A DNA stretch of 64,000 nucleotides from Liolophura sinensis (Eukaryota > Mollusca > Polyplacophora > Chitonida > Chitonidae), in assembly GCF_032854445.1 (NCBI RefSeq), contig NC_088295.1, forward strand, positions 4,900,501 through 4,964,500. Direction: 5' to 3'. The notes under the pieces are model-generated. The model saw only the letters and a program-made list of their open reading frames with translations. It was not told the DNA's origin and made no database searches. A program made the position numbers and the translations under genes. Positions 36 through 60,500 of the stretch are shown piece by piece. Within the stretch, counting starts at the first letter, position 1, and the number at the start of each line of letters is the position of its first letter.

Positions 36-6514
<6,479 letters not shown>

Positions 6515-7250
6515 CTTTCCATACTTTACTAATCACTTGTCCAGTTTTCATCTCATTGTTCCAGACAACATAACTGAATGTCATTTTTGTGGTTTAAATA
6601 CTGTATATACTGAGTGTATAAAGTTCATTTTTTCTTAATTGTTGTCTGGCTATGTAGGATAATCCCTGATTGTTCTTGTGGCTAGCATTGGAACCCTGTC
6701 TGTTTTACTCCACATTAGTCACAGGAACCTTCGTTGTGCAAATTCCATACAATCTAGATCAGTGTAATTGTTCCTAGGCGGGCCTCGAGCACAGAAGGGA
6801 TATCTATTGTATATCAGCCATCCTATTACTGTCCTAGTCAGTTATTGCATTAGCTTAATGTAAAATGATAATAAAAGCAAAAATGGCCATATTGTGCCAT
6901 GTGGCCTGGGTAGACTTGTTGGATGTCTCTTAATAAGTAGTTATGACTTATAATGAACATGAAATAATATTGAAGAGCAATCGCAGAACTTTTTCTATAT
7001 CTGGACATTTAAGGGAGATAAATAAGATGAGTTATGGGAAGGTCAAGATATTTTACTAGGGAAAAAAAATATGCTGTGTTGAAATGAAGATCTTTTACTA
7101 GGATGAGTGAGAGAGGCTTTGTATTTATTCTGTTGTAAATCAATACATTGTTTTATGGTTTTCATATCCTTGGAATAGGTCAGCTTTTGGAAATCAGTAA
7201 CTTTTTTTTTTTCTGTGTACAAAGTCTAAATAAACTCTCATTATTTCATC
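6515..7250 (+). other. UBE2I: UBE2I 3' UTR with two candidate poly(A) signals
   Basis: After the stop codon there are canonical AATAAA hexamers at 6870-6875 and 7229-7234. Either could end the transcript, and alternative use of both would give 3' UTRs of about 380 and 740 nt. Cleavage positions are inferred. Confidence 0.55.
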
Positions 7251-10200
7251 TAGCATTTTTGCTTGCAAGTTTGTCAACCATGTTTACAGTTGGTAATTGA
7301 GCTTTGATTATTTACATGATTTAGGGGTTAAATGCCGTACTTCTTCACTTTGATGATGGCATCACATATTTGATGTCGTTATACAGGGAATATTCATAAA
7401 GCTACTTTGATATTTCATTGGTCTGTCCAAGTTCTGTGATCAGTCATATTTTGTTCTAAATGACCCGTCCTTGATACGTGATCCATTGCTCACATGATGT
7501 CCGTGGTCAATATTTTTTATCTCATGTCTGCAGCAATTGAGATTCAAAGTAAATATTATGATCTTGCTTTGTTTCTCGTCTATCCAATCAGTAAATTTCA
7601 CTGATGAGGAACTGCCATGTTAGGAATTAAATATGATCACTTCATTGTGTTTCATTATCCTGAGGATGTACGCTGCACATTACAGGTGCACTTCCCAGCT
7701 CTTCGCGAAGTTTAATTTTAGGCTGGCTCACATATTTGAGTTTGCATTTTTGAGTCCTATCACATCACTGACACCACAAGAAGACCATGGTGACAACTCA
7801 GCAAAGTCTGGAGAGGCAGGAAATACACACCAAATGACATCGGCTGAGTGGTGAATAAAAATGCTTAATAAGTAAAGGAGAATGTGCACTTTATACCAGA
7901 CTCCTCACAATTTTTTCACCAAATACTAAATTGCGTTTCCAGTGATATAAATGGTGAGAGCCTCTGGCCCGTAGGCAGCCCCAGGACATCACCTGATGGG
8001 CTGGGATAATACTTCCACTGCCTCAGCCCCCGAAAGTTTACAACATTCCGCCACTCCTGTGGGTTGTAGGTGGGAAGGTCTACTTGCAGCCAGCAGATTG
8101 TCATGGGTTTTCCCTGGAATTGCCCAGTTTCCTACCGTAATAATGCTGGCTGCTTCTGTATAAGTGGCATATTCTTGACTAGGACATGGAACACCAATCA
8201 AATCAAAATCAAGAAAAAAAAAACAAACTTTTTTTAAATCACTGCCCAACCATAATCTTAAATCATTCAAACCAAGGGACAGGGTAATGAAATTCTTCCC
8301 AGGACTTCTGGATATGTTGCCCGAAGTAATAATTGCTCCAGATATGATAAATTAATTTGTAAAAGAAGATTGGCTCATTGTAAAATTGTTTAATTCTAGA
8401 GAAACTAAGCAGACAAGGTCACAGAGGATGGTGGGTGAAGAACAAACAATATATCTTCCTGAACAATGGAGATACCATGAAAATCACCGTGTTCACTGAC
8501 ATTAGAGAATAGCCATGACAATAATGTCTATGGCAATGATGGTAAATGAAGTGTTACCACATTACCACTACCGTGACTACTCCGAGAAACAGCAGCCTGG
8601 TCATAACCAAACACAGAATGGCTCTCTGAGGCTTAACGCCACATTCACAAAAGAAACTGAAATGATACAAGTGCCATAAGTTACCTGAGCTGAAATGGTA
8701 CAATAAATTACCTGACCACCAAGACACTAAAATTCTCTGCAAACATACATCCCTCAGAAAAGCTTGAAAGCTTTCTGTGGAAAATGAGCAGAGTCGTGTC
8801 GGTTGTACCATAAACATATATCTCTATATTGGGATTGACCTGAAGCATGATACGTACATGTACCTCTACATTTAGATTAAGATGCATCACATGTATATGT
8901 GGGATAGACAGAACACTACGAGATTGGCAGGACCATCCTACACAAGCACACCTGCTCCAAATGTGTACCTCCATATGTGGATTTCTGGAAGCATCAAATA
9001 CATGTGTATCTCTACATGAAGACTGACAGGACTATCATACAAGTACCTCTACAAGTTAACTGATGGGACTATCACATGTGTACCTCTACATGATAATTTA
9101 TGAAAACATCATATGCAGGTGTACCTCTACATGTTAACTGATGGAACCATCACATATATGTACCTTCACATGTTAACTGATGGAACCAGGATGTTTATCT
9201 CTACATGGTGACTGATGGGACCATTAGATGTTTATCTTTACACAGTGACTGATGGGAACATCACGTGTAACTCCTTGACATGTTAACTGATGGAAACATT
9301 ACATGTGTATCCCTACATGTTGACTGATGGGACCATCACATATACATGTAAGTGTACTTCTACATTTACGTGTAAATGCTGTCTTGTCAGGGATCCACGC
9401 TAAAAAGCTGAGCTTGGAGCTTCACTTCAAGAAATCCTTAGTTCAAAGAGACATATTGCCATTATATTAGACATTATCTGCATAAAGTTGAGACTTTCAA
9501 ATGTCTAATGACCTGTATCTGATTCTGAGTGAACAATCAACTGTTCGGTTTTATCTGGGTTTCCCTTCGACAATCAACTTAAGTCACTATATTTAGAAGA
9601 CTGACTTTTTGACTGGATTACCTCCCCTTGTCATCTAGATGACAGCGAACTTTGAGATCTCAGACACAATATAATTGTGTTGTACTTATGTGGCCTACCA
9701 CGTACATGTAACTTGTAACATGTAGCAGTTCTGCCATACAGACCGCTTGAAATTATCACTACTTTATAATACATTATCGATAGAATGGAAGATCGTATTC
9801 GGGTTACTAGTCTTATAATGTTGCATTGTGGGAATCTTTGCACTGCCTCATTTGCATGTTATCTCATCAAGCAAACAGTTTAGATCGGTGACGTATTTCC
9901 CCTCGTAATACTCTTCATTTACATCTTTCATAAAACAGACACCCAGGAGTTTAGTCAAACGCAAAGTTCTCAATTTTGTATTTACCTCAAAAATTCTGAA
10001 TTTCTTTGGACGATATGTCCCTTTAAAGGTACATTTTAATAGCCAGTGATTTTCACCACAGTACGTGATGAGCTGCAACTTGTTTACTTCATATTAAAAA
10101 TGTCCACAAATAGGGCACGTGATTCCTAAGAGCCTGTGCGCTCCCTGTCCATATCCAGACCAGAGTTAAAGACTACTTGCTCACAGTTATAGTGCCTGAA

Positions 10201-13500: not shown

Positions 13501-16500
13501 TCAAAGTATGGCCCATTTTTTTATGCCCACCCTACATAACAACAGGTTTCAAAACTTTCAAGCATATTACGGTAAGCACCACAGAAGAACATTGTTGTTA
13601 TGGGAGTGGCATTCATGTAAACAGGTACGCTTTGTGAAATGGTCCATGAAACAAGGTGTGCTCTAGTTAGAAATCGCGGGTACGGTAATGCAGGAGGTAA
13701 TGTTCACTAAGTGGAGGGGTTTGTCCACTCACTGATGTTTTGAAGGTCTTCTCACAGACGTTGCACTGGAATGGACGCTCTCCACTATGGCTCTTCAGGT
13801 GCTCTCTGACATGAGAGATCCTCTTAAACAGCTTCCCACACTCTCCACACTTGTACTGTCTCTCCTCTGTGTGCACGGCCACATGTTTGGTCAGGGTGTC
13901 CCGACAGGTGAATGTCTTCTCACATTGCATGCATTTGAAAGGGCGTTCCCCTAAACACATCAGAATGACAAACTGAAGCAAAGATCTTAAAACTCAAAAG
14001 CACTTAAAACAGCTGGGTTTGAGTACAGATATTACATCTGCGCGTTACTATTACAGCTTGATTGCAGTATGTACATGCACAGATGTCTTATATACCAGTG
14101 TGTTCTTGACACAGGACATTTTTTTTTTACAAAAAGCAAATGAAATCTAATATTATAGCTGAGGATACATTGCTTACCTGTATGAGTCTTCATGTGCTGG
14201 TTGATGTAGCTCTGACCACGTAATGATTTCTGACATATCGGGCAGGTGTACACGGCCTTCTCCCCCTGGCTCATGCTGACCGAGGACACATCAGAGCCAT
14301 ACCCTTGAACCTCCAACAGCTGCTGAACAGCCAGTTTAGCATCCCTGCTGGGAGATAAACACACATCTTGTTTGACAAACCTTAGAAGATTCACGAAAAG
14401 GATGATTATGGTTTTAAGAATACCCTAAATGACCATAAATTTGCCCATGACTAACTTGCACATTTTTCCTGATTCTGAGAGTTCTACTGAGATTAGAAAC
14501 GTATTTGAGGTTTGCTTGGAACATGGGTGATATTTCCTACTGGAAAAATGTGAGTTTCAGCACCACAAATAAAATCTTGTGACATTTACATGCCTCTAAA
14601 AATGCACTGTAGTGGGTGAAATTTGAGGTCATTTAGGGTAATAAAGAAAGTTGTGCTCAAAAAGTGAGGAAAGAAAATCCATTTTTGAAGCTTATTTTTA
14701 TACCTCTTAACAACTGCTGTCTTGTGCATATTTTCCGGCAGTGGTCTGAAATGTTCAGGAATGCCGTCATCGATCAACTAACTGGAAATGAAGACTACTT
14801 AGCACCCTCTTTTCACGTTGATATCATGACTACTGGCTACTTAATTTCTCGACTGACCTGTTGCTTAGAGCCCCCTAAGAATAAAGCTGAGAAGACTTTT
14901 GTACATTTTTGTGTAAGAACACACCTGCAACTGTAACCTGCATATTACAAAATAAAGATCAAACGTTTCTTATATCCTTTCATGTCTACTGCTGGTGCAT
15001 CAGATCATGGGGTTTAGTGTACCAGTGTGTAAAGCTACCAGCGTGTACCAGTGTGTAAAGCTACATGTATGCGTATATAATATGCGTTACTATCAACAAT
15101 GATAAATGACAAATATATATCAAATGTATACATCAAATGTATATATACATGTATTTCACAAACTATAACAATAACAGCCAACCACTGTATAACACTGGTG
15201 TGGAGATTTTGATCTACATCTGTATTCTTGAGCATGGCATAGAATACCAACCAAATAAAAAAAGTCTACACCTGCAGAAACACCTGCTACACATGCTTCT
15301 GGCAGGTATGGTACAAGTGGTCTCTGTATCTTACCACCAGCGACTCATGTCACTAATGATATTGGTCATTCCTTCATAATGCAGTTCTACAACTTGTTGC
15401 CACTAGCAATTTCTGATCTGATCAAGTGCTATCATGAATTCAATCAGATGTGCAATCACAGAAGCTTATGACTCCCATCTTGTGAAGTGCTACCATGGAT
15501 TCAGACAGATGTGCAATCACAGAAGCTTGTGACCCCCATCTTGTGAAGTGCAACCATGGATTCAGACAGATGTGCAATCACAGAAACTTGTGACCCCCAT
15601 CTTGTGAAGTGCTACCATGGATTCACACAGATGTGCAATCACAGAAACTTGTGACCCCCATCTTGTGAAGTGCTACCATGGATTCACACAGATGTGCAAT
15701 CACAGAAGCTTATGACTCCCATCTTGTGAAGTGCAACCATGGATTCAGACAGATGTGCAATCACAGAAGCTTATGACTCCCATCTTGTGAAGTGCTACCA
15801 TGGATTCAGACAGATGTGCAATCACAGAAGCTTGTGACCCCCATCTTGTGAAGTGCAACCATGGATTCAGACAGATGTGCAATCACAGAAGCTTATGACT
15901 CCCATCTTGTGAAGTGCTACCATGGATTCAGACAGATGTGCAATCACAGAAGCTTGTGACCCCCATCTTGTGAAGTGCAACCATAGATTCAGACAGATGT
16001 GCAATCACAGAAGCTTGTGACTCCCATCTTGTGAAGTGCTACCATGGATTCACACAGATGTGCAATCACAGAAGCTTGTGACTCCCATCTTGTGAAGTGC
16101 AACCATGGATTCAGACAGATGTGCAATCACAGAAGCTTATGACCCCCATCTTGTGAAGTGCAACCATGGATTCAGACAGATGTGCAATCACAGAAGCTTG
16201 TGACTCCCATCTTGTGAAGTGCTACCATGGATTCACACAGATGTGCAATCACAGAAGCTTGTGACTCCCATCTTGTGAAGTGCAACCATGGATTCAGACA
16301 GATGTGCAATCACAGAAGCTTATGACCCCCATCTTGTGAAGTGCAACCATGGATTCAGACAGATGTGCAATCACAGAAGCTTATGACCCACATCTTGTGA
16401 AGTGCTACCATGGATTCACACAGACGTGCAATCATAGAAGTGTATGGCCCCCATCTTGTGAAGTCCTAACATGGGTGAAGAGAAATCCTGTGCTTTAAGC

Positions 16501-19500: not shown

Positions 19501-22500
19501 AGGTGCATGGAGGCAAAATGACCACTATTTCAGCTTACTAAAAACCTGCCAAAAATACCACTAGCATACATCTGAATATCTAGCATCACTATGCAGTCAA
19601 CATGCATATTTTTTCTCCATTATCTGTTAATCTATATGGAAAGTATTTATAAACATAACAAAACATTTGATTTATTTGATTGGTGTTTTACGCCTTACTC
19701 AAGAATATTTCACTTATATGACGGCAGACAGCATGATGGTGGGAGGAAACCGAGCAGAGCCAGGGGAACTCAACGACCATCCACAGGTTGCTGGAAGACC
19801 TTCGCACGTATGACCAGAGAGAAAGCCAGCATGAATTTGAACTCAAAGCGACTGCACCGATGACGTGCTAACCCCATCGGCACCCCCTAAAACATCTGAC
19901 ATATTATGCTATTAGTATACATGTAGATATATGTAACATATCTTTTACCTTGATTTTAAATGCCTAGTGAGGGCCCCACTTTCAGAAAAGCTACGACCAC
20001 AAAGGTTACATGAGTAGGGCTTTTCTCCTGTAAAGAAAAAAAAAAACTGGACAAAACATGAACATCCTCCTGTAACTAATGACTCTTAGCTATAGTATGA
20101 ATAGTATCATTTATGGCCGCGCATTTGTTTGCCATTGTTTGTACATTTACTTTTCCCTTACTCTTTCCTTAATGAAAGTTCTGTCATAAACAGTTTCCCT
20201 TAAATGTACATGTATAATCATTTTTCTTGACGAGCATATTTCAAAATTCTGAGGTTTGCATACACTGGATATAGTCATCACAAGTTGGGTGCAACATAAC
20301 ACTGTCCGAAACTGAACACTGATGCAACAGGCAGCAAGAAGGAACAGCCAGGAATATCACAGAAAATGGCCCAAAGATGTCCCCATCAGCTATATGTAGA
20401 TGTACAGCTGTAACAGTGCTGCATCAAACAATGGCAGACAAAGATTCCCAAGGCTGAAAAGCTCACATTAGGCATGAAATCATCTAAAGCTATGATTGCA
20501 AGATCAGTAATAATATTTAAACATATTTACATAAACATAAACATATTTAAACAAATAATTGTTAAAGCTTGAGAGCGGGGAACATCTGTTCCCTAGTATG
20601 ACCCCTGGGGGAGTACAGGACCAGCTCAGTTCTCTGTAGCATGGATCACTCACCTGTATGACGCCTGAGATGTCGGGTAAGTGAACCCTTGGTCTTGAAT
20701 GAGTACGAACATCCATCAACTGTGCAGGGAAACAGTCTCTCATTGGTGTGAATCAGCATATGGGTCTTCAGCACACTAGCCTAGGGAAAATAATAGCCAG
20801 AATCACACAACAACACCAGGAAGATTCAAAGTGACATAGATGACAAAAGTAATACTGACACAGGGGGTGGCAATATGTTTGATTCAAAGTGATATAACAG
20901 ATGACAAAAGTCAGGCTGACACAGGGGGAGAAAACAGTAAAATCACACAACAATAATATGGGTGTTAAGCATGCTATCCTTGGGAAGACAATAACAAGAT
21001 TCACACAACAATAATATAGGTCTTCGGCATGCTAGCCTGGGGAAGACAATAGCAATATTCACACAACAATAATATGGGTCTTCAGCATGCTATCCTAGGG
21101 AAGTCAATATCAAGATTCACACAACAATAATATGGGTCTTCAGCACTCTATCCTAGGGAAGACAATAGCAATATTCACACAACAATAACATGGGTCTTCA
21201 GCATGCTATCCTAGGGAAGACAATAGCAATATTCACACAACAATAATATGGGTCTTCAGCATGCTAGCCTGGGGAAGACAATACCAATATTCGCACAACA
21301 ATAACATGGGTCTTCAGCATGCTATCCTAGGGAAGACAATAACAAGATTCACACAACAATAATATAGGTCTTCGGCATGCTATCCTAGGGAAGACAATAA
21401 CAAGATTCACACAACAATAATATAGGTCTTCGGCATGCTAGCCTGGGGAAGTCAAGAGCAATATTCACACAACAATAACATGGGTCTTCGGCATGCTAGG
21501 CTGGGGAAGACAATAGCAATATTCACACAACAATAATATGGGTCTTCAGCATGCTAGCCTGGGGAAGACAATAGCAATATTCACACAACAATAATATGGG
21601 TCTTCAGCATGCTATCCTAGGGAAGACAAAAGCAAGATCCACACAACAATAACATAGATCTTCAGCACGCTATCCTAGGGAAGACAATAACAAGATTCAC
21701 ACAACAATAATATGGGTCTTCAGCATGCTATCCTAGGGAAGACAATAGCAATATTCACACACCAATAATATGGGTCTTCGGCATGCTAGCCTAGGGAAGT
21801 CAATATCAAGATTCACACAACAATAATATAGGTCTTCAGCACTCTATCCTAGGGAAGACAATAGCAATATTCACATAACAATAATATGGGTCTTCAGCAT
21901 GCTTTCCTTGGAAAGACAATAGCAAGATTCACACACCAATAATATGGGTCTTCGGCATGCTAGCCTAGGGAAGACAAAAGCAAGATTCACACAACAATAA
22001 TATGGGTCTTCAGCATGCTAGCCTAGGGAAGTCAAAAGCAAGATTCACACAATAACAGTAGGAATATTCAAAGTGACACGACAGATGAAAAAGCAGGATT
22101 GACGCTGGGGTACAATACGGAGATTCAAAGCGACATTAGAGCTTAGAATGTGACTCAACTCAACCGATCAGAACTGGCCCCAGCTGCTGATGGCCATACG
22201 ACTTTAAGATTAAAAGGCTGGCTACCAGTCAAGTAAAGCTTCAGCCAAGTCCAGACAATATTTCACATACAAGAGTGCGTAGAACCCGATGCAACAATTG
22301 GATTATGTAGAGTTTGTTCTTAAGCACTTGTGTATGTCAAGCTTTACAGATTACATTTCATCTGACAGCAAGTGACTACCTCTTTGAACTTGTTGCCACA
22401 GATTTCACAGATGTGAGGTTTATCCCCCAGGCCTGTTGTCCTCCTAGTCCGGGGCTTCTTCTGGACAGGCTGATCATCTTCCTCTCTGTCCTCCTCCGCT

Positions 22501-35189: not shown

Positions 35190-36430
35190 CCAGAGTGGAG
35201 TACCAGCAGTGTAAACGGATTGTTATTTTACATTATAGTCACCTCAATGCTAGTACAGTAATAGGGTTGGTGTTTTACATTATGGTCACCTCAACACTAG
35301 TGTGAGTAATGGGTTGGTGTTTTACATTATAGTCACCTCAACACTAGTGTGAGTAATGGGCTGGTGTTTCACAGTGACCTCAACGCTAGTACAGTAATAG
35401 GGTTGGTGTTTTACATTATGGTTACCTGAACACTAGTGTGAGTAATGGGTTGGTGTTTCACATTATTGTCACCTCAACACTAGTGTGAGTAATGGGCTGG
35501 TGTTTCACATTATAGTCACCTCAACACTAGTGTGAGTAATGGGCTGGTGTTTCACAGTGACCTCAACGCTAGTACAGTAATAGGGTTGGTGTTTTACATT
35601 ATGGTCACCTCAACACTAGTGTGAGTAATGGGTTGGTGTTTTACATTATAGTCACCTCAACACTGGTGTGAGTAATGGGTTGGTGTTTCACAATATAGTC
35701 ACCTCAACACTAGTGTGAGTAATGGGCTGGTGTTTTACATTATGGTCACCTCAACACTAGTGTGAGTAATGGGCTGGTGTTTCACAGTGACCTCAACGCT
35801 AGTACAGTAATAGGGTTGGTGTTTTACATTATGGTTACCTGAACACTAGTGTGAGTAATGGGTTGGTGTTTCACATTATAGTCACCTCAACACTAGTGTG
35901 AGTAATGGGGTTGGTGTTTTACATTATAGTCACCTCAACACGTGAGTAATGGAGTTGGTGTTGTACATTATACAGTCACATGAACACCAGTATGAGTAAT
36001 GGGGTTGGTGTTCCACATTATGTTCACCTCAACACTAGTGGAGTAATGGGTCGGTCTTTCACATTAGTCACCTCAACACTAGTGTGAGTAATGGGGTTGG
36101 TGTTTTACATTATAGTCACCTCAACACGTGAGTAATGGAGTTGGTGGTGTACATTATACAGTCACATGAACACTAGTATGAGTAATGGGGTTGGTGTTCC
36201 ACATTATGTTCACCTCAACACTAGTGTGAGTAATGGGTTTGGTGTACACTATAGTTAACTGAACACTAGTATTAGTAGTGGGATTGGTGTCTTACATTAT
36301 AGTCACCTAACACTAGTGGAGTAATGGGGTTGGTGTTTTACATTATTGTCACTGAAGACCAGTGTGAATAATGGGGTTGGTGTTTTACATTATACAATTA
36401 GCTGAACACTAGTGGAGTAATCAGACTGGT
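35190..36430. repeat. 47-bp minisatellite upstream of the ALYREF 3' end
   Basis: About 25 units carry GGTTGGTGTTTTACATTATA, GTCACCTCAACACTAGTGTG and AGTAATGGG. A shorter variant of about 42 bp (CACAGTGACCTCAACGCTAG then TACAGTAATAG) is interspersed at intervals, giving a higher-order pattern. The array fades out 400 bp before the predicted ALYREF poly(A) site. Confidence 0.92.
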
Positions 36431-51500: not shown

Positions 51501-54500
51501 GGTCACTTCCAGTTGTACACTATATGTACATATAATTTATACAAAGCTCAACATTCTGTAAATCTAGACAATCAAGTCTGGTTTTTTTTTTTTTTGATTT
51601 TGATAAATATCTGCTGCATTTACAGTCAGCATGTCCAGTGCCCAGGTTTAACATTTTGTGGCTTTTCTCAATTTGCTTTCATGAACTTCATTGAATAAAG
51701 TGGACCTGTGCACTATAGCGTATTTTTAATTACATTTTTTCATTTATTTTTTTAGATGGAGAACATTATCAAAAGCATGCAGCATCCAGAGACTGGAATA
51801 CCTGTTCGCAGCCAGAAAATGTTCCTCACGACAATACCATGTGCTTTTACAGGTAAGTCCGACTAAAGGATGGTTACAGTAGGTTACATTTTAGGTTTAC
51901 CTTATTTGAGCTTAGTTTTGTCTCAACATTGCATCCGAGTGAAGAAGCAAAGCGGAAATGCTTTCCTAAATAACATTTGTCATTGCTGATGTCTTTTTGG
52001 ATGGCTGACAGTTTTATCTAGAAACAGACTTTAATCATCATTCCTCGATTCTGATTGGACTTCATAACTGAACACCCAAAAAATTTGTCTGTGCACGTGG
52101 AAAATCTCCACAGCATGCACAGTGTGCAGGTAGAAAATAAACTTTCCACCAACTTCCTTGCATAGATCCAAAATAGGAGTTGCTGCATGCAGATTTATTC
52201 CATAATACAATGCTCAACATGCGTAGACTTCATGTGAATTTGTATTTTAAGCATATAAAGTTTTCAGTAGTGAATGTCATATGGCTTGAAGCAAATCTTC
52301 ATGTAAAGTAGATTTTTCTGTTGCAGACACAAAAGGTAACATAACCTTTTCTAGCTGTTATAAATACATGTAGTAAATGCGTAAATCATATTATCAATTT
52401 TCTGTAGTGCAGCTGAAAATATTCATTGTACATGTGTAGCGTGATATATGTATATGTAAACAGGATTGTATTGAGGCAGGAATGTACATGTGCTATACTT
52501 GCTCAGGTGTCCCCAAACTGTAAGGCACATGTGTTAATGATTGGGAGCTGGGGTGGGATTCATCATGGGGTGAAGGGAAAGAGCTGCCACTGGGCTCTAG
52601 TGATTGTGAGATAAACATAGAGCATGTAATAGCTGGAGCTTCTTGGCCCTGGGTTTAGCTAAGAATGAGAAAAACACAAATATACTGTTAGATAGTATGA
52701 ATGTCTGCATGTTTTACTGGGTCATGCTACTCAGCAGCTGGAAGCTAAATGCCTGAATATATTCCCAGTGAATTAAGATCTTTATTGGACAGCTCCTGTG
52801 CTACTTAATGCCAAATGTGCCACCATACAGGGTATGTACTGGGTATATGCAGTGGTCCTTACACTTAATGTGTGGTTACCATACAGTTTGATATAATTTA
52901 GCAGCTAGGCACTTCACTCTGTAAGCCAGTAAAAAGATACTGGCATTTGTCACCTGATTATGTTGAGTGGAAGCTGGTGTTGAACACAAAGCCATATTGA
53001 CAGTGGTCTCTTCATTTCAAGAGTATTTCACGTATACAACAGTGGCCAGCATTATGGAGGGAAGAAACTCTTTTTTTATACAGTGTACACCTTGTACACA
53101 TTGGTTGATTTACTGACACCTTGTTCACATTCTTGCGGAATCAGCATGACCATAAGTACTTGTACATGTAGACATGGTTCATTGTTAACCTGTGCATCAT
53201 TTACCCATTTAAAAAATGCTGATTAAATACACTATTTATTAAATGTGGCAGGTGCTTACAAATGCAATATTAGAATGTTCACATCAGCACAAAGGTTGCC
53301 TGTGTTGTTTACACCTTGTCTTGTACACATCTTGGTTTGCAGTAGAGACACTTTGTCCATTTTACATTGTGTAAATGTTTTGCAGATTTGAGTATACAAT
53401 ATAAGACACATGCCTGGTTCACATGGCAATATAAATGTGAACAATAAATTACAATAACATGCCCACAAGGTGTAGTAACCCTGTTCACATGTGAGCTTGT
53501 AGTACAGTCTTTATTAGCTGATTCATAAAATAATGTGCTCTATAGACACCTTTATCACATAATATTGTGTAGTATATACCACTTGTTTAAATGTACATAT
53601 TGTAATGTTCAGTATTGACACCGTGTTCACACTGCAGTTAGCACGTCCTAAAGATATGCATATATAATACTGTCATACTTGTTTGTGTGTAAACCTCTAG
53701 GCAACATTATACTTCTGAAGGCAATTATTTAAGGTAAGACAATCATCTGGTAATATTGTGATGATGTCATTTTCCCTCTCTTGGGGGTTTTCAACGAGAA
53801 GGGTTCAACCCCTGTCATTCTCCTTTTGGACATGTACATGTACAGGTGGAAGGTATTTATAAAGGTATCAGTGTATGGGGAAGTGGGTTAATTGTAGCTG
53901 AACCTGAGAGGTGTGACGTCAGCCTCTGAGGGAGAAGACGTAAACCAGGGATTTGCATACCTCACAGCCACAATTAGCAGAGTGCCAGCGCTCAATCTCG
54001 TCAAAGGCACAATTTCATGGGCAGAATTAATTGATTTATTTATCCTTGCCTCAGGATGTTGTCTGTTTCAGCAAGGCACAACCATCTAAAGGAGATCCAA
54101 TGTTACTGCATCAGACTTTGTTTAATTAGATTGTGTTTTCAGCATAACTTGCAATTCATCAGTTTAATTATTGACAAGATTGAATGAGTACGTAGATGTG
54201 TTGTATGTTATGACAAACAAAGAAGTCGCTTTTCCAGTTGATTTCACTCCAAACCACAGATTCTCCTGTGTGGAACCACAACATGGAAAGTAAAAGATAT
54301 AGGACAACTCCTGTGCTGGTAGTTGTCAAGCCACTTAACTCAGAACAGGAAAGAGCTCATATTTGGCTGTTAAGGCATTTATTCTAAATTCTTTTTTTTT
54401 CCCCTTTGAGATGTTCAATAGATGCAGGCCCAGGCTTAACAAAGCTATATGAACGCATACATGCAAATGTACTGTAAAACCAAAAAAATGAGCAATATGA

Positions 54501-57500
54501 AAAAGATATTGATCATTCTAAAAAACGAGAAAGAAATTTTCATTTTTAAGGCATATTCTAAATTTCTTAATAACCCCGTTATTTTTGGCATATTTTTCAT
54601 CAATGGTCAGAACTATTCAGTAATGACGTCATTGATGAACATTTTCTGTCTTCACAGTTTCTTCCTTCAGACTTAACGGATTAATCTCAGGTTTGGGATG
54701 AGAAATCCTTTGTCACGAAACCTTCGTTGGCATTACATTTTTTTAACATTTGCTTATCTGCCTGTGTTTGTTCATTCAAATTTTCATTTTTGTGCGATAT
54801 CTTCCTTCATTTTCATATAATGTATTGATCTCATGACCAATCACTTGTCACGGCATGATATTTGACTCAAAATTACTTTAAATTGTCATGGTCTGTCTGT
54901 CCCTTCATTCATTGTAAGTTTTTCCAACTTTGTATTCTTGCATATTTACTGATTGCTGAGTTTACCCAGTCCCGATATATTGTCGGTTGTTTGTTTTTTT
55001 TTATGTAGTTCTCCATTGAAGACATTGTGTCTATAAGAATTTTCTGTTATGCCTGGCATGATTGTGTACTGAAGATCCAGTCTTGACCCCGAGTTAGAAC
55101 TGACTGTTTGTGCAATCATTGCTTTACTCCAACCCATTAACCTATACCACACTCCCTACAAAATGTAGTGGGCCTAGTAACGTTGCATGTACAAGTACAC
55201 CTATGCTTGCGTGATGTCACAGGCATAGCTTTAGCTCAGTTACCTTGTGTCTAATTGTGTTGAGTATACATTTACACATAGAAGATGCGGGACAGGTGTA
55301 TTATATGCAAGCACGGAACTGACCTGTGTTCTCCCTCACAGCTATGTATGTCTGTACACAGTACATGCTGTACATGTGTCTAGAACTGCTGATCAACTAG
55401 AGGAAGGATATGTTACTTGACTTTTGACCATCTTAATGCATGCATGAGTTCTACGGCAGATTCCATTATGATGTTCATGGAGAAGTACATAGAAACACAC
55501 AGAGATGATACCAAACCTGTTCACACATCTATTTCTGTTTAACACACTTTAATATTAGAATATGTGTCGCCATATTTATGCCGGTAGCGAGAAGAATACC
55601 GTTCTTTAGATGCAATACAATCAGGTCATTCAGTAATATTATACAAGTAGATTTTAAAAAAGTCCCATTTTTCAGATGTGATGTCGTAATGAATAGCAAC
55701 ACTACATACATGTGTATAAAACTTCGTGTTGTAGAGGGGTTTTCCAGGACCAAGCTGAATATTCATCACATGCATGCCTGTAGGTGTTCATTAGTAGCTC
55801 GTTTGTGCACAGTATAGAGAGCTATTGTCATACCTGTGGCATGGCAGTTAGCGTCTGCATTACCACAGGTCAATCAGTTCACGCTAAGATTTTAGACGTA
55901 TGGTGAGCTTTTGCAAATTTCGCTGAAAGAGTATCCTAAAAGAAAGATGCTCTTTTAATTTCGTGTCATTTTGTGCTTTCAAAAAGGCCTCCACTAAATT
56001 ACAGTAAAAATTGTGTAAACCTATTATGCCTAGTACAGTGAGAAAATATTGGTTTGCTTTGTAGGTTTATACAAAAAGAATTAGCATGCCGTAGATACAA
56101 ATTAATGGAACAAATACAAGTTGGTTTATTCAATAAAAATAACATGGTTTGCAAAATGGAGATAAAAGTGGGCCAAGATAGGCCTGGTGGGTATTGATGG
56201 TGGGTACAAGATGTCGGTTTTCAGCAGTGTCTGTGTTGGTAAGTTTCGTTGTATTTCCCTTGCCACACAATATTAATCCAGGTGCTTGACCTGATTGGCA
56301 TGTAGGGTCAAGTAGACATCACCCTCCTTTCCTTGTGATGTCCGGTAGCTTTCTTATTCTTATTGGCTGTTATATGACAGCCTCTTGTTCGCAATAGCTC
56401 AGGTATTCGTTATTCCATATTTGTTATATAACATGTCGCAAAGTTTACTTTTGTCAATATGTGAAGATCGTCTCAACTTAGCCAACGTATATAAAAAGAT
56501 ATTGAGGTATTGAGTATTATGAGAATACATGTAAGACTACAACTTATAATATCTATAATGCCATCTCTGTTGTCAGTATATGTACTGTATGAACCATTTT
56601 CGTTAGTACGAAGTAAGTATTGGTTAAAACAATTATTTGTGAATCAGAGCTTTGGAGAACCTTTCACTGACATCTCCATACAGGGCCTGCAAAGCTACAT
56701 GTATAAATGTCATCATTGTCAGATTCATCAACTTGTGACCTAACATTTGCCCTTAAAACAAAAAATAAGTCTATCATGCCTTAACAAAGTAAGAAACATA
56801 AAATTTAATTTTCTTCAAGTTCCCAAAGAGGCGGATTGTTTGAAGAAGGTGTATTTAGATAACATTGCTGGATTCACCAACAAAATAATATCTCATTTTC
56901 GAAATTATTCCCTACCTGAAGAAGGTAGAATTACATTTTGTGGGGTTGTCATGGTTCTGCTTGTCATGTTCATGGCCTGCATTTCCTTCAGATACATTTG
57001 TCAAATCTAAAAGGGATTTCCTCACTGTGTGTTACTGATTGACTGGTTGATGAACCAATTGCATGTACATAAGTGTTATTGTACTGTGTGTTCACTAGCT
57101 ATGTCTGTGACTGGTTGATGCACCATTCACATGAAGTGTTATTGTACTGTGTGTTCACTAGCTATGTGTGTGACTGGTTGATGGACCATCCACATGAAGT
57201 GTTATTGTGCTGTGTGTTTGCTGGCTATGTGTGTGACTGGTTGATGGACCATCCACATGAAGTGTTATTATGCTGTGTGTTCGCTGGCTATGTGTGTGAC
57301 TGGTTGATGGACCATCCACTTGAAATGTTATTGTGCTGTGCGTTTGCTGGCTATGATATGTGTGACTGGTTGATGGACCATTCACATGAAATGCTGGTGT
57401 ACTGTGTGTTTTGCAGGCTATGATCTTTGTGACTTGGTTAATGGAACACCCACATGAAATGCTGTTGTACTATGTGTTTTGCAGGCTATGATCTTTGTGA

Positions 57501-60500
57501 CTGGTTAATGGAACACCCACATGAAATGCTGTTGTACTGTGTGTTTTGCAGGCTATGATCTTTGTGACTTGGTTAATGGAACACCCACATGAAATGCTGT
57601 TGTACAGTGTGTTTTGCAGGCTATGATCTTTGTGACTGGTTAATGGAACACCCACATGAAATGCTGTTGTACTGTGTGTTTTGCAGGCTATGATCTTTGT
57701 GACTTGGTTAATGGAACACCCACATGAAATGCTGTTGTACTGTGTGTTTTGCAGGCTATGATCTTTGTGACTTGGTTTATGGAACACCCACATGAAATGC
57801 TGTTGTACTGTGTGTTTTGCAGGCTATGATCTTTGTGACTGGTTAATGGACCATCTGGACATTGAAGATTCTCCTGAAGCTTTGCACCTTGCTAATCTCC
57901 TATGTCAACATGGCTACTTCTTCCCCATAACAGATGTAAAAAACCTCTCTGTGAAGGATGATGGATCATTTTACCGTTTTCAGGTAAGCATGTTTTATCG
58001 GCACATTTTCAGACATTTTTGTTTAAGGGAACAAAGGCGTTGGTTTTCAAGACAGAATAATCTTTTCAATGAGTTTTAACATTTTATTGTTATTGATAAG
58101 TAAATAGACTAGAACAGGTATAACCTATAATAAAGAGACTGTGGGTGTAAGCATTTTTGTGAGACATACACTTGATTGAATTGTATCAGTTATTTTAGTA
58201 GTACAGTATGTCAGAATAACACACACCCAACACAACACATTTGTCTCCTCGTCTTGGCTGAATCTGCTGAAATAGAGCTAGTCAAAACTTGTGAGAACAA
58301 GTACAAAGATAAACTCTGACATATTAAGCCATAAGACAGCTCAAACCAAGCACAGAAGGGTGTTATAAAGATTTTAATAACCACTAGTGTTTCCATACCT
58401 TTGTTGATTGATCTCTGAACAGTTAGGTAATGTCTGTGTTATTTTGATCATTTGGACATGATTAAAACAGGACAGGAATTTTGAGGACAAATCCAAATAC
58501 ATCTAGTTGTTACAATGCTTTTGGTGCTTTTGAAAAGGTGCTTTATTGAAGAAGGATATTATTTTTCTCTCGGTTAAAAGAATTGTCCAGTTTGGCACTA
58601 AGTTCTCTGCCAGATTTGAACAGAAAGACTGTGGAAAGCATGATGTGTTTTCTCTGTGGCGAGCTGCAAACATCCAGGGTTGTTTATGGACTTAAAATCA
58701 GTGACTGCCAAACATGTCCAGCTTTACAGCCGAGGTTCCTCTGGATGAGGGATGTTTCCTTGATGGCCATATAAACTTGCACCTTACCCTTCTGCTTGCT
58801 CGCTCACCACCAGTTTACTTATTTGATTTCCTGGCCAGGCATTAAATTGCCTGTATTACCCAATCCTTGCTATTGGATTGGGAGCTTAGGAACCCTGTGG
58901 GTCAATTAGACATTAATTGATCCACTGCTAGAGGCTGTGGGTATCTGGTGGTTCACAGGGCGTAGGGGGGACTGGGTATTAATGGAAGGGTAACAGTGTT
59001 ACATGGCTATAATCTGTGCATGCCAGTAGTGACCGGAGTAGGAGCTGATGTGACAGCCTGGCAGCCCTGACCCCAGCCTCACAGCTAAACCAATCCAATG
59101 ACCTAATCATGGAGTGAAGTAGACTGAAACATTTGTATTAGTTATTGCTGTCCGAATACAAAAATATTTCGTCCAGTAGATGTCATAAAATTGCCTGTAC
59201 AATGGAAAACTGGATTCTTTGTAAAGGTCTCAGAATAACATGTCTTAGGATGGCTTCAAACCTGTAGTTTCAGTTTAAGGTGGCATAAATTCTAAGTAGA
59301 AAGAAGGAGGAAGAAGGCTTTATCTTTTTGGCATTTATTCTGCCACCTTCGGAAGAGTGATAAGGCTCGATTGGGTTTAGTTTCACCTCATTTAGTTCCT
59401 GTATCTCTCCAGATTTGATCGTCCATGTCAGTTACATATACTTCACACCATGACTGTAACCCATAGAGCTGATGTGATCCATAGCCCTGGAGGGAAGCCA
59501 GGGAGACTCGTTTCCCATCACCAGCCTTGATTCACTATAGAAGTTTAAGGCATCCCACTCCCCTCTCCTCTCTCTGCCACTTTCCTTCCCTTTTGGGGAG
59601 TGACTGACTGTGACAGATAGGCCTGGCAGGGAGGGAGAGGCAAGTTTCCCTTCACCTGGCCTCATTCCTGTATCACGCCAGCCTTTAGCCACCTTCCATC
59701 AATTATACAGCGTTATTGATTGATCCTTGCTAAATTGGTTGGCAGTCTGCCTGCCATCTCTGACAACCACTGGCACACTTACTCCTCAGAGTGATACATG
59801 CTGTTTTCTCTTCCTTTTCTTTCTTCTGGCACTCGCAGGAATTAGTTGGCTGCTCACATTACACAATTTGCCTCTCTGGTGACTACACACACAAGTGGAC
59901 TCCTCTCACAGGTGTCTGGTGACAGACATGTATCTGATGGTGTCACTGCTCACCTGGCTAATACGATAAAGTCTTCACAGTTGTACTTGTACTGTGTAAA
60001 ATGTGAGAAATCAGTCTGTGGCAGGGAATTATTACTTGAGGAAATGTGAGGCTGTGTTCTACCATCTCTCATGGACACAGTGAATGATGCAGCTTGTTAG
60101 AAGTATATGTACAGTACATACCGTCCATGCCATGAACAGAAAATTTGAGATTCTTCCTCTTAGTGTATCCATTCTACAAGGAAATCAATGATGTTTTTAT
60201 GATGTCACCAAAATAATGCTGAAAAATAACAAAAGAAAGTAAAGTCAATTACTTCATTATGTCACCAGTGCATAATCTGTATGTGTCTGTTGGGAGCCAG
60301 AACAGTGTCGGTGTATATGCAGTTACGGAGTTGCAGAGAATATACATGTAGGATTTGTATAGGTATCAATCTGCAGTATGATTGTGAGTGGTATGAGTTG
60401 AAATGCTGTCATGTATTCACATGAATGTACACACATTTACAAAGACACAATGTAGACCATTACACTTTGTGTAGCATTATAGATGTGGGTGGATTAACAC

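Follow-up and report, generated by a model that had tools for sequence, protein, structure and literature searches.

A tandem array of copies of its own 3′ splice junction precedes exon 3 of an R7-type RGS gene in the chiton Liolophura sinensis

In the chiton Liolophura sinensis, exon 3 of an R7-type RGS gene is preceded by a tandem array, the unit of which consists of the start of this exon joined to the end of the preceding intron. The array lies in a window of 64,000 nucleotides (the whole stretch of DNA that was analysed), and all positions given below without a contig are those of the forward (+) strand of this window. We interpret it as the product of neutral growth of a splice-junction minisatellite, which is probably tolerated through exon definition and nonsense-mediated decay (probability of about two in three, judged from the sequence). 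Arrays of this kind recur at exon edges in the chiton genome.

The gene was identified by its domains. Exon 2, from the ATG to the donor (51756-51852, 97 nt, ending in phase 1), encodes the first part of a DEP domain and is bordered by an AG that ends at 51755 and a GTAAGT donor at 51853. The following intron (51853-57822) is 5970 nt long and carries the array at its 3′ end. Exon 3 (57823-57983, 161 nt) is entered in phase 1, left in phase 0 and followed by a GTAAGC donor starting at 57984; it encodes the later part of the DEP domain. The true acceptor with the start of exon 3 occupies 57811-57840, and its AG ends at 57822. The protein obtained by joining exons 2 and 3 at this last AG covers all 72 positions of the DEP profile (E = 1.6e-20). 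Its best solved match is RGS7 (91 bits), followed by RGS9 (69 bits), and the alignment to RGS7 runs without a gap across the exon 2/exon 3 junction. RGS9/11 as the closest type was ruled out because RGS7 scores higher. Exons of the RGS domain were found downstream on the same strand (E = 6.8e-11 for the RGS exon; matches at C1:4971555 and 4973045). The gene is of the R7 type, with an N-terminal DEP domain and an RGS domain further downstream, and the DEP and RGS matches together with the ungapped RGS7 alignment bear out the earlier note on this DNA, which had proposed an RGS gene with exon 3 starting at 57823.

The array extends from 57033 to 57850 and is built of 67/68-bp units in its part nearest the exon. 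TRF reported it at 57106-57850 with periods of 68, 135 and 203. The sequence TGTGTTTTGCAGGCTATGATCTTTGTGACT occurs in seven exact copies, starting at 57405, 57473, 57540, 57608, 57675, 57743 and 57811. When the unit was searched in the chiton's own genome, matches were obtained at this locus only, in 7 places, with a search that skips very common words. The older part (57033-57416) opens with a relic unit (57033), continues with four units of 63 bp (57099, 57162, 57225 and 57288) and closes with a transition unit of 67 bp (57351), the 63-bp and transition units being given in the CTATG register. It is followed by six young units (57417-57822) of 68, 67, 68, 67, 68 and 68 bp, each with an exon-start copy and then an intron-end copy. 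The five young units that are complete in the alignment are 97-100% alike (the sixth, at 57418, is split there by a chance CTATG). Similarity to them falls to 87-90% in the transition unit, 69-75% in the 63-bp units and 56-58% in the relic, so that near-uniform units lie inside and diverged ones at the array edge; a 135-bp period is also present. Distance from the exon is greatest for the oldest units, and the young units agree with at least its first 18-28 nt; both points fit the view that the array was fed from the exon end. That view needs correction for the latest growth. All six young units have GGAACACCC where the exon carries GGACCATCT, and they alternate between 68 and 67 bp, which indicates that the most recent copies were made from decoys and not from the exon copy. 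For comparison, 30-nt junction windows of sampled genes were searched in 3 kb of another locus, and 0/286 had a copy at ≤6 mismatches. With 6 copies close to the RGS junction that carry 0 or 1 mismatch, chance is excluded.

The six decoy acceptors are located at 57405-57434 (AG ending at 57416, with the exon-start copy attached), 57473-57502 (57484), 57540-57569 (57551), 57608-57637 (57619, with an additional AG at 57606-57607), 57675-57704 (57686) and 57743-57772 (57754). Counted from the exon start, their identity to the true junction reaches 12-44 nt in the upstream direction and 18-28 nt in the downstream direction, in line with the earlier claim of six intact decoys that match the true site for more than 18 bases. 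The positions 57417 to 57823 listed with that claim are the first exonic bases, and the AGs end one base before. Reading from each of the six decoys leads to a stop: in the four GACTTGG units at 41 nt past the junction, and in the two GACTGG units at 74 nt, just beyond the next junction. Both the predicted stop within GACTTGG units and that of GACTGG units at the next junction were found, and it also holds that the most downstream AG is required for a functional protein. Only the last of the seven acceptors yields an R7-type RGS DEP domain. Five older copies had been described as AG-degraded. This is strictly true of three of the junctions before the units at 57099-57351, which have no AG; the other two (AG ending at 57098 and 57161) still have one, shifted one base off register.

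Apart from the additional AG at 57607 in one of them, the young units have no AG between their acceptors, so a separate branch point is possible in each. For the true site, the tentative candidate is a branch-point-like TTTAT at 57776-57780, in that half of the preceding unit which derives from the exon; its A is 44 nt upstream of the last base of the true AG. At the same place TTAAT stands before five decoys and TTGAT before the first. Of the chiton acceptors tested, 14% have TTAAT at a distance of 15-50 nt upstream, versus 5% in two control stretches. With hand-set weights, the best GT inside the array scored 1.6, compared with 7.0 for the true donor.

To other genes of the chiton the analysis was extended through 176 exon matches (64/81 listed matches for myosin, 47/50 for CCT and 65/132 for kinesin), in stretches picked by exon density from the match tables ahead of seeing the sequence. 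No confident splice call was available for 66/352 exon ends, which were left out. Against 0/286 in the comparison with another locus, local copies were present at 13/285 called junctions, namely 3/137 acceptors and 10/148 donors (p = 0.09 for the difference between the two), where exons within one gene are not independent and some calls are surely wrong, because the splice scores use hand-set weights. The raw counts were 4/137 and 11/149, before two rows were dropped: the donor of C11:27414708, which is the far end of the L048 array, and the L045 acceptor, with a single copy that has 6 mismatches and no AG. Intact upstream acceptor copies numbered 47 in a myosin gene (L005), 27 at L041 and 2 at L020, and the donor arrays had 3 to 22 intact downstream copies. 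The L005 array is broken by a run of 200 N, a possible gap. Repeats were found in 128/947 intron windows and copies in 6/176 exon middles. On the acceptor side, 4/137 junctions had arrays versus 22/111 positions 600 nt upstream; on the donor side, the values were 10/148 and 15/118 (600 nt downstream). The fall towards the junction is clear for acceptors and shallow for donors. This pattern, with arrays common in introns and rarer at junctions, is what would be expected of a neutral process that selection prunes. Across 14 arrays, among them that of RGS, the AG or GT was kept in 165/177 counted copies, and a stop follows in 156/165. Sites of the opposite type, able to form pseudo-exons of 40-300 nt, occur in 5/14 arrays; a general rule that such arrays lack partner sites is therefore not supported.

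Behind the observed structure we infer the following mutational route. A tandem duplication whose two ends flanked the 3′ splice site would have copied the intron end together with the exon start. Replication slippage or unequal exchange would then have added further such units on the intron side, where variation among copies is unconstrained. By origin the array would not be regulatory but one of many left at exon edges by active minisatellite turnover in this genome. Its tolerance may be explained by two effects, which we derive from the sequence and from published data on splice-site competition: exon definition would favour the exon-proximal site, and errors would meet nonsense-mediated decay. 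Next to long introns, exon definition should favour the acceptor nearest to the downstream donor. The true site would give an exon of 161 nt, the decoys exons of 229-567 nt, and the array has no strong donor. Any decoy products that leak through would reach stops 188-526 nt before the exon end and be degraded. In human genes with large flanking introns, the sites closest across the exon are favoured, according to PMC9225289. For competing 3′ sites of similar strength, the same source describes the upstream preference under exon definition as significantly reduced, not reversed, so exon definition by itself may not suffice against six decoys. Further points count against our explanation: the decoy acceptors are transcribed ahead of the true one, TTAAT, which is enriched upstream of chiton acceptors, stands before five decoys but is replaced by TTTAT at the true site, 5/14 arrays hold sites of the opposite type, and the fall of arrays towards the junction is shallow for donors.

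Among the alternatives is a splicing rheostat, the tuning of RGS output that the earlier note had raised. The decoys would take a set share of exon-2 splicing, their products would decay, and array length would tune the amount of RGS protein, perhaps varying between individuals. All six decoys are intact with an early stop, the near-identical young units imply recent copy-number change, and the heterozygosity of the sequenced animal, ~1.2% (PMC11068029), makes length alleles plausible. Against this stand the three of five older junctions that lost their AG, which shows that decoys are not kept, and the same structure at unrelated CCT, myosin and kinesin genes, which argues for a general mutational by-product; we regard the rheostat as unlikely. 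Slightly less likely still is scanning from the intron side, in which a single distant branch point would direct splicing to the first AG after it (decoy 57416), leaving the gene partly or wholly disabled in this individual. The overall upstream preference among human competing 3′ sites in PMC9225289 speaks for it, but each young unit can hold its own branch point, R7 RGS and RGS-domain exons remain recognizable further along the gene, and the myosin acceptor with 47 intact decoys would also be disabled.

An assembly artefact is very improbable. Tandem arrays can be mis-assembled, and the L005 array has the 200-N interruption; however, the HiFi reads average 8,347 bp at 14x (PMC11068029), about ten times the length of the array (<1 kb), and substitutions distinguish the units, which follow an ordered pattern from 63 to 67/68 bp. 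We give the least credit to an extra protein, for which the older 63-bp units, open in the frame of the exon, would serve as an alternative exon start. The frame is open for 116 aa (57073-57423) and weakly resembles DEP (E = 0.00097, 19.5 bits against a cut-off of 32.7). It was rejected as a protein: it closes just past the first decoy junction without an in-frame connection to exon 3, and use of the AG at 57098 or at 57161 would put it in the wrong phase. As 63 is a multiple of three and the unit is partly coding by descent, an open frame is unsurprising without selection.

Choice among equal splice sites is usually studied with engineered duplications. The chiton genome offers a repeated natural experiment, with 2 to 47 intact acceptor decoys and 3 to 22 donor decoys in myosin, chaperonin, kinesin and RGS genes. 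These arrays set exon definition against a first-come-first-served choice, since transcription reaches decoy acceptors earlier than the true site and decoy donors later. RNA-seq of five tissues of Liolophura japonica has already been deposited (PMC11068029). It is conceivable, though rather doubtful, that about 1/20 of splice junctions genome-wide, thousands of sites, lie within arrays of self-copies, that the copy nearest the exon is reliably chosen by the spliceosome, and that a leak set by array length gives heritable, fast-mutating expression differences between individuals. A curiosity of lancelets is hereby described in a mollusc, with a first estimate of its frequency.

NAGNAG sites are one type of closely spaced tandem 3′ splice sites. 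In common with the RGS array, such sites place several usable AGs ahead of one exon; they lie a few nucleotides apart (PMC9225289 treats pairs ≤9 nt apart) and share first-step recognition, whereas the RGS copies are 67/68 nt apart and each may have its own branch point. Splice signals are also part of the internal tandem duplications that create or alter introns (Zhuo 2007; Gao and Lynch 2009; as cited in PMC3087553). In those cases the copies turn into introns or alternative ones, but the RGS array has no apparent new intron. Intronic VNTRs such as that of ABCA7 are described in PMC5954066 as repeat arrays with a possible effect on splicing; in the RGS gene the unit itself includes the splice site. 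Minisatellites near alternative exons are mentioned for C. elegans in PMC4039745. A literature search, which mostly lacked subscription papers, found no case of boundary arrays in molluscs.

By its sequence, the RGS array belongs to a described class, the "mirages" of lancelets (PMC3087553). Its unit spans a real exon-intron boundary, many but not all units keep the splice signals, edge units are diverged, and similar arrays recur in the genome; recurrence at further genes is suggested for cephalochordate mirages in PMC3087553. The chiton belongs to another phylum, Mollusca, and its 67/68-bp RGS unit compares with 150-160 bp in BflGb6 and 10-72 bp in Adh3 (PMC3087553). Length variation between haplotypes and somatic instability are features of the class; the chiton was analysed in one haploid assembly, in which a rate over many junctions was measured. 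Adh3 data and globin RT-PCR reported in PMC3087553 suggest that mirages leave regular splicing undisturbed. In PMC3087553 and PMC3902484, mirages occur on both acceptor and donor sides, keep AG/GT in many units but not all, evolve in concert inside with exclusion at the edges, and include imperfect ones in PGBD5. The closest likeness in unit structure is BflGb6, where, as in the RGS array, the unit spans the splice junction and joins the 3′ end of an intron to the 5′ part of the following exon, exon 2 (PMC3087553).

The intron before exon 3 (57823-57983) of the R7-type RGS gene ends in a tandem array, which was located by sequence inspection and TRF at window positions 57033-57850 on the plus strand. 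A young unit of 67 or 68 bp consists of a copy of the exon 3 start followed by a copy of the intron end. The exon-derived part is exact for 18-28 nt and divergent beyond, and its end is not sharply placed. The exact 30-mer TGTGTTTTGCAGGCTATGATCTTTGTGACT was counted seven times, the seventh being the true plus-strand junction: its acceptor AG ends at 57822, and exon 3 begins at 57823. All six upstream copies (decoys) are identical to the true site over 12-44 nt before the junction and 18-28 nt after it. The array with six exact upstream acceptor copies, described in an earlier note, is real and was rightly described. A search of the chiton genome (609,464,459 bases, 632 contigs) with the unit, skipping very common words, gave seven matches, every one within the array. 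The Liolophura japonica assembly (632 scaffolds, 609,495,693 bp) is reported to derive from PacBio HiFi reads with a mean length of 8,347 bp at 14x (PMC11068029). The array is much shorter than a single read of this mean length.

RGS exon 2 ends at 51852 in phase 1. Splicing it to 57823-57983 yields 86 residues, which cover all 72 positions of the Pfam DEP profile with an E-value of 1.6e-20 and align full-length to solved RGS7 chains (91 bits, compared with 69 bits for RGS9), gap-free at the junction and with one single-residue gap elsewhere. This join confirmed the exon start at 57823. The RGS-domain exons lie 13-15 kb downstream of exon 3 on the same strand. The nonsense outcome that the earlier note assigned to each decoy was also borne out: in six of six, a stop occurs 41 or 74 nt past the junction, leaving a further 188-526 nt of the extended exon after it. 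Since all the decoys lead to stops and the last-AG join gives the DEP and RGS7 match, the sequence predicts that a working RGS protein requires the last acceptor copy. Two further arrays were noticed by eye, from translations, in later introns of the gene (C1:4964501-4973400, approximately 616-1300 and 7239-7790 of that stretch); one of them closely follows an RGS-domain exon.

In the alignment, the array opens with a relic at 57033; after it come the 63-bp units, four in number, then one transition unit of 67 bp and finally the young units, whose lengths alternate (68, 67, 68, 67, 68, 68); TRF also gives a period of 135. The five young units that are complete in the alignment are 97-100% identical to one another. 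Identity to them falls to 87-90% for the transition unit, 69-75% for the 63-bp units and 56-58% for the relic. The five older junctions had been called AG-degraded, which holds for three, where the AG is lost; in the other two it is present, displaced by one base. All six young units carry GGAACACCC; the corresponding sequence is GGACCATCT in the exon and GGACCATCC in three of the 63-bp units. Because the young units share GGAACACCC and differ here from the exon, recent growth appears to have used decoys as templates. A 116-aa open frame (57073-57423, plus strand) spans the older units, sharing its frame with the exon, and is probably a by-product of 63 being divisible by three.

Recurrence was assessed in three gene families sampled by exon density, using 64 of 81 listed matches for myosin heads, 47 of 50 for CCT chaperonins and 65 of 132 for kinesins. 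A confident splice site was assigned to 286 of 352 exon ends, and copies of a 30-nt window spanning the junction were sought no more than 1.5 kb away, with 6 mismatches as the maximum allowed. Local copies were found at 4/137 acceptors and 11/149 donors; as a null, each junction window was compared with 3 kb from a different locus, and none of the 286 had copies there. Two of these were dropped, a donor at the distal end of an array already counted and an acceptor that was weak, which left 13 of 285 junctions (4.6%, interval 2.5-7.7%). Exon middles had local copies in 6 of 176 cases. Repeats are rarer at junctions than in intron windows (15/286 vs 128/947, p ~5e-5), and their rate rises steeply upstream of acceptors (from 4/137 to 22/111 at 600 nt) and shallowly downstream of donors (from 10/148 to 15/118 at 600 nt). 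The simplest reading is that arrays originate anywhere and are then pruned at junctions. TRF arrays (period at least 20, length at least 60 bp) cover 17.8% of the myosin loci, which total 139,400 bp; in the window their share is 9.7%. More minisatellites of the window (units of 47-61 bp, up to ~26 copies) lie at 4660-5254, 15424-16474, 20943-22052 and 35226-36421.

One acceptor array precedes a myosin exon (L005, C2:5375501-5385400, 1182-3005), with 47 intact upstream copies of a 32-bp unit, TGTTTGTAG|GTTTGAGCG; a 200-N run, either a gap or a withheld stretch, breaks it, so its displayed length is provisional. A kinesin array (L041, C9:4626001-4633200, minus strand; ~680 nt ahead of the acceptor, which is 4994 in reverse-complement coordinates) has 27 intact units of ~27 bp. 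In most of these units CAG abuts GTAT, placing an acceptor and a donor-like site side by side, as in a recursive splice site. The acceptor array of stretch L020 has two intact copies of a 95-bp unit. Donor arrays occur in L009 and L026 (two exons each), L012, L021, L003, L023, L048 and L052. The kinesin array of L048 (C11:27411101-27415200, 2040-3720, ~73-bp units) holds at its far end a longer exon piece with its own Pfam match (C11:27414708), as though bracketed by two exon ends. The CCT array of L026 (C8:53403901-53412800) has 66-bp units at the donor of the exon match C8:53405971, and its nearest six decoys would insert an open in-frame stretch of 22 residues per unit. Stretch L003 (C1:26636501-26646400) also holds two alike myosin exons ~1.1 kb apart (C1:26642195 and C1:26643291, profile 118/121-152), possibly mutually exclusive. 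Elsewhere in the assembly, contig C99 has seven COI matches at ~15.5 kb spacing, as a concatemer of mitochondrial DNA would. With AGA = Ser and ATA = Met the mitochondrial COI gives a sensible translation, and the mitochondrial gene order looks molluscan.

Together with the RGS array, the 14 arrays comprise 177 counted copies, of which 165 keep the AG or GT. By hand-set weights, 103 of these 165 score above the true site or within 0.5 of it. Use of the 165 would give a stop in 156 cases. Eight others, of which six belong to L026 and two to L041, would add an open in-frame insert, and one would cause a frameshift that is stop-free over the stretch read. The copies sit intron-side, where array growth leaves the exon unbroken.

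The structure, decoys, coding outcome and recurrence are demonstrated. To account for them, we propose that a tandem duplication spanning the splice junction founded the array, which would have grown through slippage or exchange; the exon-proximal acceptor would be selected by exon definition, and splicing errors may be cleared via nonsense-mediated decay. Exon definition is supported by the 5970-nt intron and 161-nt exon, compared with 229-567 nt for decoy exons, and by the donor scores, which reach 7.0 at the true site but at most 1.6 at any GT within the array. Among human alternative sites, large flanking introns are reported to favour the sites closest across the exon (PMC9225289). However, in the same source, competing 3' sites of comparable strength are described as having a reduced, not a reversed, upstream preference under exon definition, and 5 of the 14 arrays could in principle make pseudo-exons. 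On this counter-evidence a small leak to decoys is expected. We put the whole chain, from duplication origin through exon-definition choice to decay of errors, at roughly two in three.

The RGS array is less odd than first thought and belongs to a known kind of repeat. Its sequence fits the structural features of the mirages, the exon-intron boundary minisatellites of lancelets. The mirage of BflGb6 combines the 3' end of an intron with the 5' part of an exon, and its two described haplotypes differ in unit number, six in one and three in the other; regular splicing is reported to be undisturbed, as suggested by the Adh3 data and by RT-PCR of globin (PMC3087553; PMC3902484). Among the results listed by the literature searches there was no mollusc case of boundary arrays. 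If our sample is fair, extrapolation from 285 junctions gives thousands of natural splice-site competitions in the chiton genome. Relative to the lancelet mirages, the phylum and the measured frequency are new.
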